Assembly (NCBI GenBank): GCA_013813715.1
Contig: JACCRF010000002.1
Span: forward strand, 1 to 35,037
From: Gemmatimonadaceae bacterium
GTDB taxonomy: Bacteria > Gemmatimonadota > Gemmatimonadetes > Gemmatimonadales > Gemmatimonadaceae
Reading direction: 5' to 3'
DNA: 35,037 nt
Below are positions 10,103 to 17,035 of the stretch, piece by piece; positions within the stretch are counted from its first letter, which is position 1; each line of letters starts with the position of its first letter. The notes beneath the pieces are model-generated. The model was not told the DNA's origin. It did not search any database and worked only from the letters and a program-made list of their open reading frames with translations. Both the position numbers and the translations under genes were made by a program.

Positions 10103-10668
10103 TCGGGCGCCAGCGCCTTGTCGATCGAGACGCACCATACATGAAGGATCATGAGATGTACTTCCTGCACATACGCGGTCACGTCGCTTGGCACCGCCAG
10201 CAGATGATCCGCCTCCGCGCCGATCAGCCCCGCAGAGCCGGTGAGCGCTATGGTCGTCGCGCCTTTTACCCGCGCCGCCATCAACGCGCGGATCACGTTC
10301 TCGGACTTGCCGCTCGTCGTGAGCGCGATCGCAACATCGCCGCGCTGCGCAAACGCTTCCATCTGGCGCTCGAAGATCGCAGCATAACCGAAGTCGTTGC
10401 CGATACACGTCACCGTTCCGGGATCTGCGGCGAGAGTGATTGCCGGCAGGGGCCGCCGCATCTTCTTGAAGCGGCCAACGAGCTCGCCTGCCATATGACT
10501 GGCCTGCGCCGCGCTTCCGCCATTGCCGAAGCAGATGACCTTCTGCCCGGTGGCGAGCGCCGAAACCAGCGCACGGCCGGCCGCATCGACCTCTGGATCG
10601 AGCGCCTCCACGCAGGCGGCGACAACGTCCTGATGTTCGCGAAAGTGGCGGCCGAGGTCTGTGGTCAT
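10099..10668 (-). CDS. gmhA: SIS-domain phosphosugar isomerase, GmhA-like
   Basis: A 189-residue single-SIS-domain protein with the length and motifs of D-sedoheptulose-7-phosphate isomerase, the first step of ADP-heptose synthesis for lipopolysaccharide core. Visible: CFGNGGSAAQASHMAGEL (phosphosugar binding), IGNDFGY, TTSGKSENVIRA, LTGSAG, and a late EVHLMILH with the conserved His. Start ATG at 10668 overlaps the helicase stop in an ATGA, so translation is coupled; its own stop overlaps the TTG of the NHL gene. No other heptose genes are in the window, so the exact sugar is inferred from the family. Confidence 0.85.
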   Translation of the reverse strand: MTTDLGRHFREHQDVVAACVEALDPEVDAAGRALVSALATGQKVICFGNGGSAAQASHMAGELVGRFKKMRRPLPAITLAADPGTVTCIGNDFGYAAIFERQMEAFAQRGDVAIALTTSGKSENVIRALMAARVKGATTIALTGSAGLIGAEADHLLAVPSDVTAYVQEVHLMILHVWCVSIDKALAPD

Positions 10669-13433
10669 GGCCCGCGAAATCTACGCTTCGGTCCCCCGCT
10701 TCGCCCCGAATTGCGACCGCTGCCCGGCTTATCGCCCCGCTTGGGTTTTTTTCGCTCGCCGCCACTTCGGCTGGTTTGCGCCCCCGGCTCTCGTTCGCGG
10801 CGGACTCGCGATTTCCGCGGGCGGCGGCCCGTCCGCGTTTCTGCCGCCAGCTCGCGCGCGCGGAGCTCGTCCGGCGATTCGTGCTCGCTCACTGGCAGGT
10901 CATCGGTCTCATCCGGCGACCACGGTCGCGACAGCGCTTCCTGGAGCTCCTCGACAGTATCCGCGCGGATCGCTCCGCGCTGGCCCCGGATCACGACGAA
11001 CCGAACTGGACGGTCGAGCGCCGGAACCTCCGCGTTCGTCAAAGTACGCGCCAGTTTTTCCGGGAGCCGCAGGCGCGCGACGGCCGTTAGCCCGGCATCG
11101 CTCTCCTCGATGTCGTACTCGATGTCGACCTCGCGGTCGCGAATGATCGCCGTATCGGGAAGCGCGGCGTAGCGCTCCCTCACCTCGCGCGGCACGATCG
11201 CATCAGCATCCAGATGGAACCGGGCATCCCGGAAATCGGCCATCGCGCCGATGGGCGCGAGTCGCTGCTCGTACCAGGCGGTCAAGTCGCCGAGGTTGAA
11301 GCGAGGAGTGGTGCCCCCAGACCGCCTGTACGTCTGCCGAAGCTCGTCAATCGCCGTGCGGTTTCGCTTCACCGAAGGATGCCTGATCACGCCGCGAGCC
11401 ATCGCTTCGGCCAGCGAATGCCGCACACGGTCGCTGTGCTCCGCGGGGAATTCCTCGATCGGCTCCGATTCCCGTTCGAGCTGAAAATCGAAATACGCGA
11501 GCGTTCGCTGAATGACGAGTTGTCCGCCTTTGCGGCGAGTATCGTAAGCGATGTCCGAGATGCTCCGCGTAGCGTACTTGCGAATGAGATGTATCGGGAT
11601 TTGCGTGCCCTCGATCCCCGCCCGCGGATTTCCTGATTTGTCCGCGAAGTACCGAAGCTCGCCGGCGATCGCTCCCCAGCTCCCGGCCACGCTCGTCCTC
11701 GACACTCTCGCGGCGCTGCCGTCGGCCGTTTCCTCGTCGATCACCAGATCGAACGGCATGTACCGGGCGAGGAGCTCCGTGAATTTCCGCTGAATGTGAT
11801 CGCGAGCGGGCGGCATCCGGTTGGGCAGCGGCAGCCCGACGCCGCGGAAAACACTGGCCATGCCGAGTGCCGCATCCTCTATCGCCTTCACCAGCACGCC
11901 GCGCCGCTCCGCCCACTGCTCGATGCTCTCGTCGAAGAGCTGGCGGGGCAATCCGTAAACCTCGCCGACGTATCCGCATTTCGCATATGCTTCGGCGTAG
12001 AGGTTGTACGCCGTGAGGTGATCGCTTCCGGGGACGATCACGCCGGCGAGATCGCGCTCCTCCCGCGTCATTCGATGCAGCGACTCGACTGAGCTCATTA
12101 CGGCGAGGAAAGGAACGAGCTCGTCGTCCGCGTTCACGAGCAGCTCGGCCCACGGGCGGTCGACCGGCAGCGCCTCGACGGCCCTCCCATATTTCGAGAG
12201 ACGCCCGTTCTCGATGATCCCTCTCCGCTCGAGCAGGGACACCGCGCGGCCATATGCGACACGATCGAGAGGCACCGGAAGCTCGAGCACCGAAGCGTCG
12301 ACGCCGAGGTCGGCGCACGTCATCGCCACGCGCTCCGAATCGCCCGCGAGCTGAAACTCCGGCGCGATCGGCTTGAGCGACCCGAACTGGATGTCGCGAT
12401 CGGAGAGAATAAAAACCCTGCCCCCTTCGACGCGCCCATGCACGCGCCCCGCCATCTGAAGAATTTCGTTCGCGCCGAGGTGCATGCGGGTAAGCACGTT
12501 GCGGCCGCGCTCGATGATGTTGCCGAAGCGCGTGTCGTCGATGACAACCGTATCGAGACCCTTCACGTTGAGCGCGCTCTGACCCGCAGCTGTCATCGCG
12601 AGGAAGTAAGGCTTGCGCTCTCCGCTTTCCAGGAACGGTCGAATGACGCGGATCGGCTCGCCGCCGTGATAGTACGCCGTGTTGATTCGCGGAAAACGGG
12701 ACGCAACATGCTCGGCCGCCTCCTCCACGCCGGCGCGCGTCGGCAGGAACATCCCGACTCCCCGGCGCTGCCCGAGAACGCGCTGGAGAAATCGCTCGTC
12801 GAGAAACTCCAGCGGATCCTTCCGTACGACTTTGACTTCCGCGGCGCGTGCGGGATCGAATGCGACACTTTCGAGCACTTCCGCCGCGTCAAGATACCGC
12901 GCATAGAAGGTTGGATCGACCGTCGCCGAGAGCCAGATGAAGCGGCAGCCGACGCGTTTTCCGAGCGCGAGGCACAGCTCGAGCTCGGCCGAGGTCTGGT
13001 GGATCTCGTCAACGACGAGCGTATCGGTTGGGAGAATGTCGCCGTCCTGGAACCAGCGGCGCGCGATGCCGGTCGTGACGATGATCACGTTCCACGACGG
13101 CGTCTCGGGCGTCGCCTCGCGTTCACGGTTCACGACGCCTACCCGGAGCTCACCGGTCTTCAGAATCGTTTCCGAAATGGGGCGCACGGACAGCGTCTTG
13201 CCGGTGCCGGTGCCGGCTACGATCCCGAATCCCTTGCCCGCAGCAGCCAGATCACGGATTTCCTGACCGTGCTGCCTCTCGAGGACTGTTTCGATCCGGA
13301 GGCCGAGGGCCAGCTCGATCGTTTCGCACGCGGCTCGCGTGGGCGCGATGACGATGATGCGGCCCGTCGCCGGCTCGGCCGCCACGAAAGCTTCATGATC
13401 CGGAGGAAGGAACCGGTCTCGGACGGTGCGCAT
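10665..13433 (-). CDS. DEAH-type superfamily 2 helicase with long C-terminal extension
   Basis: About 922 residues. Motif I GTGTGKT at 74-80, motif II DEIH at 142-145, motif III SAT at 169-171, and motif VI QMAGRVHGR, the pattern of DEAH/HrpA-HrpB-type RNA helicases. It keeps the two RecA-like domains and a winged-helix/ratchet-like region, but the last ~350 residues differ from HrpA/HrpB as I know them and end in a very basic Arg/Lys/Gly/Ser tail (KKPKRGDKPGSG...). That tail suggests nucleic-acid binding. The frame is open to 13493, but that region encodes a terminator hairpin, so the ATG at 13433 is preferred. First gene of a coupled operon with the isomerase and propeller genes. RNA rather than DNA as substrate is inferred from the family. 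Confidence 0.88.
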   Translation of the reverse strand: MRTVRDRFLPPDHEAFVAAEPATGRIIVIAPTRAACETIELALGLRIETVLERQHGQEIRDLAAAGKGFGIVAGTGTGKTLSVRPISETILKTGELRVGVVNREREATPETPSWNVIIVTTGIARRWFQDGDILPTDTLVVDEIHQTSAELELCLALGKRVGCRFIWLSATVDPTFYARYLDAAEVLESVAFDPARAAEVKVVRKDPLEFLDERFLQRVLGQRRGVGMFLPTRAGVEEAAEHVASRFPRINTAYYHGGEPIRVIRPFLESGERKPYFLAMTAAGQSALNVKGLDTVVIDDTRFGNIIERGRNVLTRMHLGANEILQMAGRVHGRVEGGRVFILSDRDIQFGSLKPIAPEFQLAGDSERVAMTCADLGVDASVLELPVPLDRVAYGRAVSLLERRGIIENGRLSKYGRAVEALPVDRPWAELLVNADDELVPFLAVMSSVESLHRMTREERDLAGVIVPGSDHLTAYNLYAEAYAKCGYVGEVYGLPRQLFDESIEQWAERRGVLVKAIEDAALGMASVFRGVGLPLPNRMPPARDHIQRKFTELLARYMPFDLVIDEETADGSAARVSRTSVAGSWGAIAGELRYFADKSGNPRAGIEGTQIPIHLIRKYATRSISDIAYDTRRKGGQLVIQRTLAYFDFQLERESEPIEEFPAEHSDRVRHSLAEAMARGVIRHPSVKRNRTAIDELRQTYRRSGGTTPRFNLGDLTAWYEQRLAPIGAMADFRDARFHLDADAIVPREVRERYAALPDTAIIRDREVDIEYDIEESDAGLTAVARLRLPEKLARTLTNAEVPALDRPVRFVVIRGQRGAIRADTVEELQEALSRPWSPDETDDLPVSEHESPDELRARELAAETRTGRRPRKSRVRREREPGAQTSRSGGERKKPKRGDKPGSGRNSGRSGGPKRRFRGP

Positions 13434-13450
13434 TCCCTGGCAACTTGCAC

Positions 13451-13486
13451 AAAAAAGGCCCCGGGAGGAATCGCTCCCCCGGGGCC
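13451..13486 (-). terminator. Strong rho-independent terminator
   Basis: On the minus strand a perfect 9-bp stem GGCCCCGGG / CCCGGGGCC encloses a 12-nt loop region and is followed by six T. It lies 20 bp after the stop of the secreted repeat protein at 13506 and separates that operon from the helicase operon. Confidence 0.85.
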
Positions 13487-13505
13487 GGCCCAACGTGGTC
13501 TGGAA

Positions 13506-14231
13506 TCAGCGCTTGTTCTTGTTGCCCTTGCCCTTCTCCCAGCCGTAGTGATTGCCGTTGTTGCTCTTATTCTTCTTCACCTTTCTCGCGCGCTCCCGCC
13601 GGTCATCGATACCGTCGCGATCGCGGTCGATGCGGCGATCGTTGTCGTCATCGATACCGTCGCGATCACGGTCGATCCATGGATCGTTACTGTTGCGACT
13701 CGCCCTGCGATTGTTGCTATTCGCTACCTGCCGATCGTACACGACGTATCTGCCGAGCGAATCGCGCCGGGCGTATTCCACGATGCGGTTGCCGTTCGAG
13801 TCGTAGCGTTCGCGGACGAAGATGCGGTTGCCGTTGCGGTCGGTGCCTGCGACGTGCCACTGGCCGTCGGACCTTCCGTTGTTGTTATCGTACACACCGC
13901 GGTCGGCCACGCGACGGTCGATGATCTGATACCGGCCCTGCGAGTCGCGACGTGCGCGCTCGATGATCACGTTTCCGTTCGAATCGACTCGCCGGCGTAC
14001 ATATATGGTATTGCCGTTCCGGTCGCGGCTCTCCGCTCGCCAAGTGCCGTCCGCACGCCGGGCGTCGGTGTCGCTGTGAATGGTGCCGGTACGATTGTCG
14101 ACGCGTCCCGAAGTCGTTCCGGTTCGCGCCGGATCCCACCAGGGTCCGTCATTCTGAGCACTCGCCGAAACCGGCGCGGCAAGCGCGGCCGCGGCGGCCA
14201 GACCGAGCACAATTGAAATTCGCTTCATCAT
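13506..14231 (-). CDS. Secreted repeat protein with two 61-residue repeats and calcium-loop-like tail
   Basis: A 241-residue secreted protein; signal peptide at 1-26 (LGLAAAAALAAPVSASAQ), start ATG 14231 with GGAG 5 nt upstream. Two tandem units (about 60-119 and 121-180) share the pattern DG.W, DRNGN.I.VR.R.DSNGN.I, ARRDS.GRY, DR.VA. They are followed by two copies of DRDRDGIDD (187-195 and 202-210), which look like thrombospondin type-3/EF-hand-type calcium loops, and a Lys/Asn-rich tail. The DNA for the DRDRDGIDD copies is almost identical, 45 bp apart. I do not recognise a named family. It overlaps the preceding gene by ATGA and is followed by a strong terminator, so the pair forms a short operon for envelope or extracellular proteins. 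Confidence 0.82.
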   Translation of the reverse strand: MMKRISIVLGLAAAAALAAPVSASAQNDGPWWDPARTGTTSGRVDNRTGTIHSDTDARRADGTWRAESRDRNGNTIYVRRRVDSNGNVIIERARRDSQGRYQIIDRRVADRGVYDNNNGRSDGQWHVAGTDRNGNRIFVRERYDSNGNRIVEYARRDSLGRYVVYDRQVANSNNRRASRNSNDPWIDRDRDGIDDDNDRRIDRDRDGIDDRRERARKVKKNKSNNGNHYGWEKGKGNKNKR

Positions 14232-14629
14232 TTGATCTCCTCGAGAAAGCTGGAAATGTCGCGGCGTTCCTTGCCGGACTTTCCTTTCTTTGGCTTGTCA
14301 TTGCCACGCCGCGGCGACTGGTCGCCGAATACGACGTAGCCATTAACTGGCCGGTTGCGCACGGCGGTGACACAATCGGTCGGCGCCGGCTGATGCCCCG
14401 CGGGAACGCCCTCGATCCAGATTCGGCACATTCCCGCCGGCGGCAGATAGGCCGGGGGAATTCCCGGCTGCTGTCGCGGGATACCTCTCGGAATTCCCTG
14501 CGGAAGACCTCGCGGCATACCTTGGGCGCTCGCTGAGCTCCCCGCCGCAAGAATCCCTGCGGCAAGGAGCGCGAGCCACCATCTATTGATCTTCCCCGCG
14601 GTCGCCCGCGAGAATGGAAGGGTTGTCAT
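14228..14629 (-). CDS. Small secreted proline-rich protein with CRxW...C motif
   Basis: About 133 residues from ATG 14629, which opens a signal peptide (WWLALLAAGILAAGSSASAQ). The mature part starts with a repeat of GMPRGLPQGIPRGIPR followed by YLPPAGMCRIWIEGVP and AGHQPAPTDC, a two-cysteine motif that occurs in small envelope proteins of several diderm phyla; its role is not known to me. The tail is Lys/Arg-rich and charged (RRGNDKPKKGKSGKERRD). The frame is open further upstream to 14764 but without protein-like character. It overlaps the next gene by ATGA, so the two products are probably made together. Confidence 0.75.
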   Translation of the reverse strand: MTTLPFSRATAGKINRWWLALLAAGILAAGSSASAQGMPRGLPQGIPRGIPRQQPGIPPAYLPPAGMCRIWIEGVPAGHQPAPTDCVTAVRNRPVNGYVVFGDQSPRRGNDKPKKGKSGKERRDISSFLEEIK

Positions 14630-14731
14630 GCCAGGTCTATTTGCAGGAGCGATGCCATTCATCGTGGAACTCGCAAGTGGTTGTGGGACAACGGTTTGGG
14701 GATATTGCCAGAACGCGTCAGGGAGACCCGA

Positions 14732-14749
14732 TGTCCAGATTTCCGGACA
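14732..14749. promoter_or_regulatory. Possible operator palindrome
   Basis: TGTCCAGATTTCCGGACA is an imperfect palindrome (TGTCC-N8-GGACA) in the 150-bp gap between the selenoprotein stop and the start of the secreted-protein pair, about 105 bp upstream of the ATG at 14629. It has the form of a dimeric regulator site. No matching regulator gene is in the window. Confidence 0.3.
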
Positions 14750-14779
14750 CTTCTGGAAACACATAGGACGAGCTGCCGG

Positions 14780-15016
14780 CTATTTCTCCATGTCGATTTC
14801 TGCCAGGAGAGCGAGAATTTCTCCCGGCTTGGCATGGCGTTTTTCCCAGGACTTTCGAAACACCGGGACTCCGTCGCGCAAAACCTCGAATCTTCCGCCG
14901 CTCGACGGCGTGAGATTGATGGCCGCTTGGGGGTATTTCTTCGCGATATCAGCCGCCAGACCGGCGGCTCGGGGATAGTAGTTTCAAACCGTGCAGTACT
15001 CTATCTCGATCTTCAT
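14780..15016 (-). CDS. SelW-like selenoprotein (Rdx family), UGA-encoded selenocysteine at residue 11
   Basis: 78 residues if the in-frame TGA at 14986-14984 is read as selenocysteine (U). The start ATG at 15016 has GGGG 6 nt upstream. The N-terminus MKIEIEYCTVUNYYPRAAG has the Rdx-family redox motif CxxU, then GLAADIAKKYPQAAINL, the hallmark TPSSGGRFEVLRDG, and a C-terminal helix (HAKPGEILALLAEID) ending at TAG 14782-14780. Homologues usually have CxxC or CxxU in a thioredoxin-like fold, and their length (75-95 residues) fits. A hairpin of bacterial SECIS type follows the UGA. Rdx/SelW proteins are thiol redox proteins, probably interacting with glutathione or other thiols; partners are unknown. 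Read without recoding the frame would be a 10-residue stub, although the sequence after the UGA is fully conserved in character. Neighbours: divergent pseudopilin gene upstream, secreted-protein pair downstream on the same strand. Confidence 0.85.
14951..14969 (-). promoter_or_regulatory. Bacterial SECIS hairpin of the SelW-like gene
   Basis: In the mRNA a perfect 7-bp stem AGCCGCC / GGCGGCU closes a 5-nt loop GGUCU. The loop begins 21 nt after the UGA, within the window used by known bacterial SECIS elements for SelB binding. From memory, the GGUCU apical loop is the same as in E. coli fdhF. There is no following U-run, so it is not a terminator. Confidence 0.75.
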
Positions 15017-15115
15017 TCGATACCCCGGCTGAAGTGATCCGCCACCTCGCGGATGGATGCGATGTCGCGCCGGCACCGCACTCACGGTAACTCCCGGATT
15101 CACCGCGGAGGAAAC

Positions 15116-15715: not shown

Positions 15716-17035
15716 CTAGCGCCGCCCGGTTCTCCTCCGCGACACCGATACCGGCGCCGCTCTCACCTCTTCGAGATCGCCGGCGACCGATCCAAAGTCG
15801 TATCCAGGTACCGAGATCCGCGGAATCGGTTCTCCGATGATCCGCTCGATCGAGCGCACCATCGCGATCTCATCCGGCGCCATGAAGGTGAACGCGTCGC
15901 CCGTAGCTGCCGCGCGGCCGGTCCGGCCAATGCGGTGAACGTAGTCCTCGGGCTGCTGAGGAACGTCGTAGTTGATGACGTGGCTGATTCCGCTGACGTC
16001 GAGTCCGCGCTGCGCGATATCGGTGGCGACGAGCACCCGAATCTTCCCGAGCTTGAAATCTTCGAGGGCGCGCATCCGCTCCACCTGTGACTTGTCCGCA
16101 TGCATCGCCGTCGCCGTGACGCCCATGCCGGAGAGGTGGCGCACCACGCGGTCCGCACCATGCTTCGTCCGGGTGAAGATCAGCACCGAATCCATCCCGT
16201 CCTTCTTGAGAAGCTCAGCCAGCAGCTCGGTCTTTCTGTCGCGCGGAACGGGATAGACTGCGTGGGTGACGCCGGTCGCCGCGGACGACCGCCTTCCCAC
16301 CTGAACCACGATCGGCTTGCGCAGATACTTTCGCGCCAGCGCTTCGACCTCCGGCGGCATGGTCGCGCTGAACAGCAGCGTCTGCCTGAAGCGCGGCACT
16401 TCGGAGACGATTCTGTTGAGTTGCGGCGCGAACCCCATGTCGAGCATCCTGTCCGCTTCGTCGAGAACGAGCACTTCGAGATCGTCGAAAACGACGTTCT
16501 GTCGCTCCATGTGATCGAGGAGACGGCCCGGCGTCGCGACTACGACATCAACACCCGCCCTCAACAGTTTGGTCTGCGGCTCAACTCCGACGCCGCCGAA
16601 GATGGGAGTGACTCTGAGACCCGTGTGGCGGCCGTACTTTCTGAAGCTTTCCTCGACCTGAACGCATAACTCGCGCGTCGGCGTCAGAATCAGCGTCCGC
16701 ACCCGATGTGAATCCGAGCCGCCGTGATTCCCCTCCAGCAGCCGCTGAATGATCGGCAACGTGAACCCAGCCGTCTTCCCAGTGCCCGTCTGGGCCAGTC
16801 CAATCAGATCACGACCGTTGAGCGCGAGCGGAATCGCCTGTCGCTGAATCGGCGTCGGGCTCGTATACCCGGCGTCCCTCACCGCATCGAGCAGGGCGGG
16901 GATGAGCCCCAGATCGGCAAAGCTGGGCAATGCGGCATCGGGTATCGCGGCGATGATGGCCGGAGGCGACGCCTCTCCCTCCTTTGGCGCGGCGGGCTTG
17001 CGCCGCGGTGCACCGCGACCGGGAGCTTTCTTCAT
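15716..17035 (-). CDS. rhlE: DEAD-box ATP-dependent RNA helicase, RhlE-like
   Basis: 439 residues. Q motif region (FADLGLIPALLDAVRDAGYTSPTPIQRQAIP), motif I AQTGTGKT, motif Ia PTRELCVQ, motif Ib TPGRL, motif II DEAD, motif III SAT, motif IV/V FTRTKHGAD and ATDIAQRGLD, and motif VI HRIGRTGR are all intact. The N-terminus is a Lys/Arg/Ala/Pro-rich extension of about 35 residues and the C-terminus is a short basic tail, as in RhlE proteins, which act in ribosome maturation and RNA turnover in the cytoplasm. Monocistronic or first in a loose minus-strand series: 21 bp separate its start from the alpha/beta hydrolase stop upstream, so read-through is likely. Confidence 0.93.
   Translation of the reverse strand: MKKAPGRGAPRRKPAAPKEGEASPPAIIAAIPDAALPSFADLGLIPALLDAVRDAGYTSPTPIQRQAIPLALNGRDLIGLAQTGTGKTAGFTLPIIQRLLEGNHGGSDSHRVRTLILTPTRELCVQVEESFRKYGRHTGLRVTPIFGGVGVEPQTKLLRAGVDVVVATPGRLLDHMERQNVVFDDLEVLVLDEADRMLDMGFAPQLNRIVSEVPRFRQTLLFSATMPPEVEALARKYLRKPIVVQVGRRSSAATGVTHAVYPVPRDRKTELLAELLKKDGMDSVLIFTRTKHGADRVVRHLSGMGVTATAMHADKSQVERMRALEDFKLGKIRVLVATDIAQRGLDVSGISHVINYDVPQQPEDYVHRIGRTGRAAATGDAFTFMAPDEIAMVRSIERIIGEPIPRISVPGYDFGSVAGDLEEVRAAPVSVSRRRTGRR

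Follow-up and report, generated by a model that had tools for sequence, protein, structure and literature searches.

A predicted SelW-like selenoprotein gene and selenocysteine machinery in a Gemmatimonadaceae genome

The selW-like gene and its product

The window, i.e., the whole analysed stretch of 35,037 nucleotides from a Gemmatimonadaceae bacterium, carries on its minus strand a short selW-like gene interrupted by one in-frame TGA, with genes for a small secreted protein and two helicase-type proteins in its vicinity (Table 1). Translation of 15016-14780 yields MKIEIEYCTV*NYYPRAAGLAADIAKKYPQAAINLTPSSGGRFEV...LAEIDMEK*; the full frame reads MKIEIEYCTV-TGA-NYYPRAAGLAADIAKKYPQAAINLTPSSGGRFEVLRDGVPVFRKSWEKRHAKPGEILALLAEIDMEK-TAG, the TAG being codon 79 (14780-14782). 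Retranslation reproduced the coordinates given in the preliminary description, the TGA at 14984-14986, the redox motif, and the 67 sense codons between the TGA and the stop. The ribosome-binding site proposed there is present 6 nt before the ATG, although it is weak. Further along the same strand, positions 13506-14231 encode a repetitive secreted protein rich in Asp, Arg, and Asn, with about two long repeats around GNRIxxRxRxDSxG and no Pfam match; a similar protein occupies the same place in one relative (L056).

Table 1. Coordinates of features in the window and of selenocysteine-related genes in the host genome (C numbers denote contigs of the host genome)
Feature	Position	Strand	Evidence or remarks
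selW-like selenoprotein gene (predicted)	14780..15016	-	78 residues plus TAG stop; ATG at 15016; family matches, homologues
In-frame TGA (UGA), codon 11, predicted selenocysteine, second redox position of CTVU	14984..14986	-	TGA in every readable orthologue
TGC, codon 8, conserved Cys of CxxU	14993..14995	-	Invariant in homologue alignment
Putative SECIS hairpin AGCCGCC-GGUCU-GGCGGCU	14951..14969	-	7 bp, perfect stem, apical loop with invariant G; fold, covariation
GGGG, ribosome-site-like run	15023..15026	-	Weak, 6 nt 5' of ATG; sequence
Small secreted protein, MCRxW motif	14228..14764	-	Kept at locus in relatives; start uncertain, later in-frame ATG possible
DEAD-box helicase, upstream of selW	15716..17035	-	Pfam; neighbour in many relatives too
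Helicase-like protein, IVIAPTRAACETIELAL motif	10665..13493	-	Conserved downstream flank of selW locus
tRNA-Sec	C12:16472-16564		68 bits, cut-off 47; ARAGORN: SeC, anticodon TCA
selD	C12:16662-17606		368 bits; directly adjoins tRNA-Sec gene
selB	C21:163463 onward		332 bits over frame, cut-off 242; reading frame intact
selA	C103:3-788		344 bits, above cut-off; partial, ends at contig edge
AhpC/TSA candidate, BCP-like peroxiredoxin	C131:10214-10594		FFYPKDNTSG[U]TREAC
AhpC/TSA candidate	C122:20465-20854		FFYQARSKG[U]TVQM
AhpC/TSA candidate	C54:1599-1892		FFLRAFT[U]VSCL, UxxC

With the TGA translated through, the product is recognised by two family profiles, Pfam Rdx (PF10262; E 4e-17; 62.6 bits, cut-off 22.6; positions 1-72 of the 74 in the profile) and NCBIfam CXXU_selWTH (TIGR02174; 49.4 bits, cut-off 34.2), which bears out the SelW-like identity first claimed from the open reading frame. 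The NCBIfam equivalog SelTWH_Campy (NF041051) scores 85.1 bits, just below its curated cut-off of 88; hence, the protein is a relative of SelTWH_Campy and is not placed in that equivalog. In an alignment with Rdx/SelW homologues, as the preliminary description had proposed, Cys8 and codon 11 are invariant in all 16 homologues, and both follow strand 2-8 of the AlphaFold model. The window's copy is somewhat divergent: its best homologue is 70% identical, and it reads KSWEKRH where the majority of homologues have KSKxGRH. The nearest homologues in named genomes come nearly all from Gemmatimonadaceae or other Gemmatimonadota metagenome-assembled genomes, so that this gene would place the host in the same group.

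The AlphaFold model (16 sequences; mean pLDDT 95.5; elements E-H-E-E-E-H-H) confidently predicts a thioredoxin-like Rdx fold. Its PDB matches at ranks 1-21 are all bacterial SelW-related/Rdx proteins, the best being 2fa8 with a TM-score of 0.88. The fold is shared (TM about 0.8-0.9) with 2fa8 from Agrobacterium, 2p0g from Vibrio, 2obk from Pseudomonas, and 3dex from Streptomyces; the solved SelW-related structures have the two redox positions in common with the window's protein, at roughly 23-32% identity across the aligned part. In the alignments shown, 2fa8 and 2p0g have CxxC, whereas the window's protein has CxxU. Mammalian SELENOW is a CxxU-type Rdx protein; the mouse structure (2npb) is related in fold but distant, with 17% identity and TM 0.66.

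The SECIS hairpin

A spacer of 14 nt separates the UGA from the start of a putative SECIS hairpin. Eukaryotic SECIS elements are located in the 3' UTR; in the window's selW, unlike in eukaryotic selenoprotein genes, the element lies within the coding sequence. Across 93 distinct homologous sequences the stem is retained, and one loop G is invariant. Two stem pairs, 18-36 and 21-33 (numbered from the T of the TGA), each join two third codon positions, and they rank first and second for Watson-Crick excess among all 105 wobble-wobble pairs in these sequences. Pair 18-36 is Watson-Crick in 80.6% of the sequences versus 42.5% after shuffling, and pair 21-33 in 89.2% versus 80.2%; in both cases 0 of 500 shuffles, which take no account of relatedness, reach the observed value. 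In a smaller set of 14 representatives, pairing is kept in 98% of cells and 17 double changes are seen, against no more than 3 in slid controls; the representatives were chosen for diversity, hence the 93-sequence wobble test is the fairer one. As the covariation connects synonymous codon positions, protein constraint is not an explanation for the pairing.

Selenocysteine decoding in the host genome and its relatives

The host genome (G000; 3.73 Mb, 183 contigs, 96.6% complete) was searched for the selenocysteine machinery. The preliminary description held that the gene implies a working selenocysteine system, and that a genome with no selA, selB, or tRNA-Sec would speak against it; tRNA-Sec, selB, selD, and a partial selA were found, so that, judged by its genes, the system appears intact apart from selA at the contig edge. 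The selD gene has a single in-frame TGA of its own (...CAG[U]ASKMGPGDL...), which we take to be the catalytic Cys/Sec position of SelD, and with the neighbouring tRNA-Sec gene it occupies G000:C12:16472-17606 (L018). The selenouridine synthase YbbB has no match above cut-off in this genome.

Three AhpC/TSA-family genes of the host genome (L146, L149, and L153) have a TGA at a redox-Cys position; these are candidates from the sequence of a single genome. Its molybdopterin oxidoreductase genes (PF00384) show no in-frame stop, hence a selenocysteine formate dehydrogenase was not seen. Together with SelW and SelD, the genome thus has at least five selenoprotein candidates, a lower bound, since beyond selD the search covered the AhpC/TSA family and PF00384.

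The gene being a pseudogene, with the TGA a true stop and the frame beyond it decaying, would fit the divergence of the window's copy, which is larger than in most congeners, and the lack of a neighbouring pfk gene at its locus. However, the reading frame continues unbroken past the TGA, the Rdx profile is matched over the whole domain, and 24 alignment columns of the family are still invariant once the window's copy is counted in. The SECIS stem is perfect, and the host retains the selenocysteine genes listed above; decay is therefore very improbable.

Among 61 related genomes, 47 have a SelW match, and the TGA is present in all readable orthologues; when genome contigs and relatives are combined, it is found in 94 of 94 readable distinct loci. 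An apparent Cys-type orthologue in genome G005, where no stop was seen, was discarded, as a run of N covers the site, and locus L126 has the same run over its TGA site. A second Rdx match without a stop in genome G042 is weak (37% identity, E 3e-4) and is not an orthologue. The occurrence of selW tracks that of selB (Fisher p = 2.5e-5): 40 of the 61 genomes have both selW(TGA) and selB, 4 selB only, 6 selW only, and 11 neither. In each of the six selW-only genomes a tRNA-Sec match exceeds 60 bits, hence selB is probably missing there because of a gap in the assembly or a match that was split.

Conservation of the TGA bears on whether the codon is truly TGC or TGT and the gene encodes a cysteine-type Rdx protein misread by sequencing or assembly. 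Cysteine-type Rdx proteins do exist, the two bacterial PDB relatives shown in the alignments being of this type, and the host genome is represented by a single assembly. Yet the same TGA recurs in every readable orthologue from dozens of independent assemblies, which makes a sequencing error very unlikely; given also the covariation of the hairpin at synonymous sites and the selenocysteine machinery in the genome, such an error is hardly credible. Other bacteria are known to recode UGA to other residues, but insertion of, e.g., Trp or Cys here by a tRNA other than tRNA-Sec is extremely improbable, as tRNA-Sec, SelB, SelD, and a SECIS are all present and the codon falls at the U of a classic CxxU motif.

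With these three alternatives rejected on TGA conservation, the intact frame, the SECIS, and the selenocysteine machinery, the minus-strand gene at 14780-15016 is almost certainly a functional SelW-like (Rdx-family) selenoprotein gene with UGA read as selenocysteine; both Rdx membership and UGA recoding are well supported by sequence comparison. SelB carrying Sec-tRNA-Sec would recognise the SECIS hairpin just 3' of the UGA, selenocysteine would be inserted at codon 11, and the product would be a 78-residue thioredoxin-like Rdx protein with a Cys-x-x-Sec redox motif. Its motif and family suggest a redox activity, most probably that of a small thiol/selenol oxidoreductase in the cytosol, which may act in thiol or peroxide redox control alongside the peroxiredoxin-type selenoprotein candidates of the genome. 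The function of SelW-like proteins has been reported as unclear, with a redox role suggested (PMC1088965).

Linkage with phosphofructokinase and relation to known SelW-like genes

Of the Gemmatimonadota selW loci, 63 could be evaluated, and in 52 of these (all within L057-L122) a phosphofructokinase gene lies directly 3' of selW on the same strand. The downstream gene is PF00365 in the example tested (L082), and the GGDGS motif is found in 51 of the 52; the gap between the two genes ranges from -4 to 161 nt, eight loci overlapping by 4 bp. Neighbours were scored by motif searches, the clustering of raw ORFs being noisy from shadow ORFs in high-GC DNA. The window's flanks match those of the relatives, with the DEAD helicase upstream and the genes for the MCRxW protein and the helicase-like protein downstream, but pfk is missing from the locus; the host genome carries it elsewhere (G000:C61:99439-100362). 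The linkage is absent from selW loci outside Gemmatimonadota.

The loci share this synteny by common descent, and the flanking helicases are conserved too; hence, the linkage is a lead and not functional proof. A functional tie of Gemmatimonadota SelW to 6-phosphofructokinase, in which a tight operon would allow SelW to redox-control or repair PFK, is possible but unlikely. If it existed, it would link selenium status to glycolysis, and the host genome, with selW and pfk apart, would be a natural exception.

SelW-like selenoproteins rank among the most abundant bacterial selenoproteins. As the preliminary description stated, the family is known in bacteria: members were found in the Sargasso Sea and GOS surveys (PMC1088965, PMC2398784) and in Epsilonproteobacteria, where such genes were wholly missed by genome annotation (PMC4607533). 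The window's gene has in common with them the Rdx family, the CxxU motif, the in-frame UGA, and a SECIS just downstream with a conserved apical-loop G; it differs in lineage (Gemmatimonadaceae). The selW-pfk linkage of most of its relatives was not met in the bacterial SelW-like literature searched, nor was the gene pair found in those parts of the open literature that treat selenoproteins, phosphofructokinase, and SelW together; the linkage may thus be new.

The expectation that selenocysteine is unusual for this lineage holds in part. Gemmatimonadota are hardly mentioned in the open selenoprotein papers searched, and no description of their selenocysteine use was found in the accessible portions of these, although the supplementary tables of large surveys may list it; on the other hand, tRNA-Sec and selB are widespread in the order. 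SelD has been reported in almost all bacterial lineages (PMC5029168).

The window's selenoprotein is almost certainly real but, since the SelW-like family is well known, fairly ordinary. Several independent sequence tests indicate that Gemmatimonadaceae use selenocysteine, and a gene caller that treats every UGA as a stop will overlook their selenoprotein genes or cut them short. The conserved selW-pfk linkage offers a testable lead on the target of a bacterial SelW protein.
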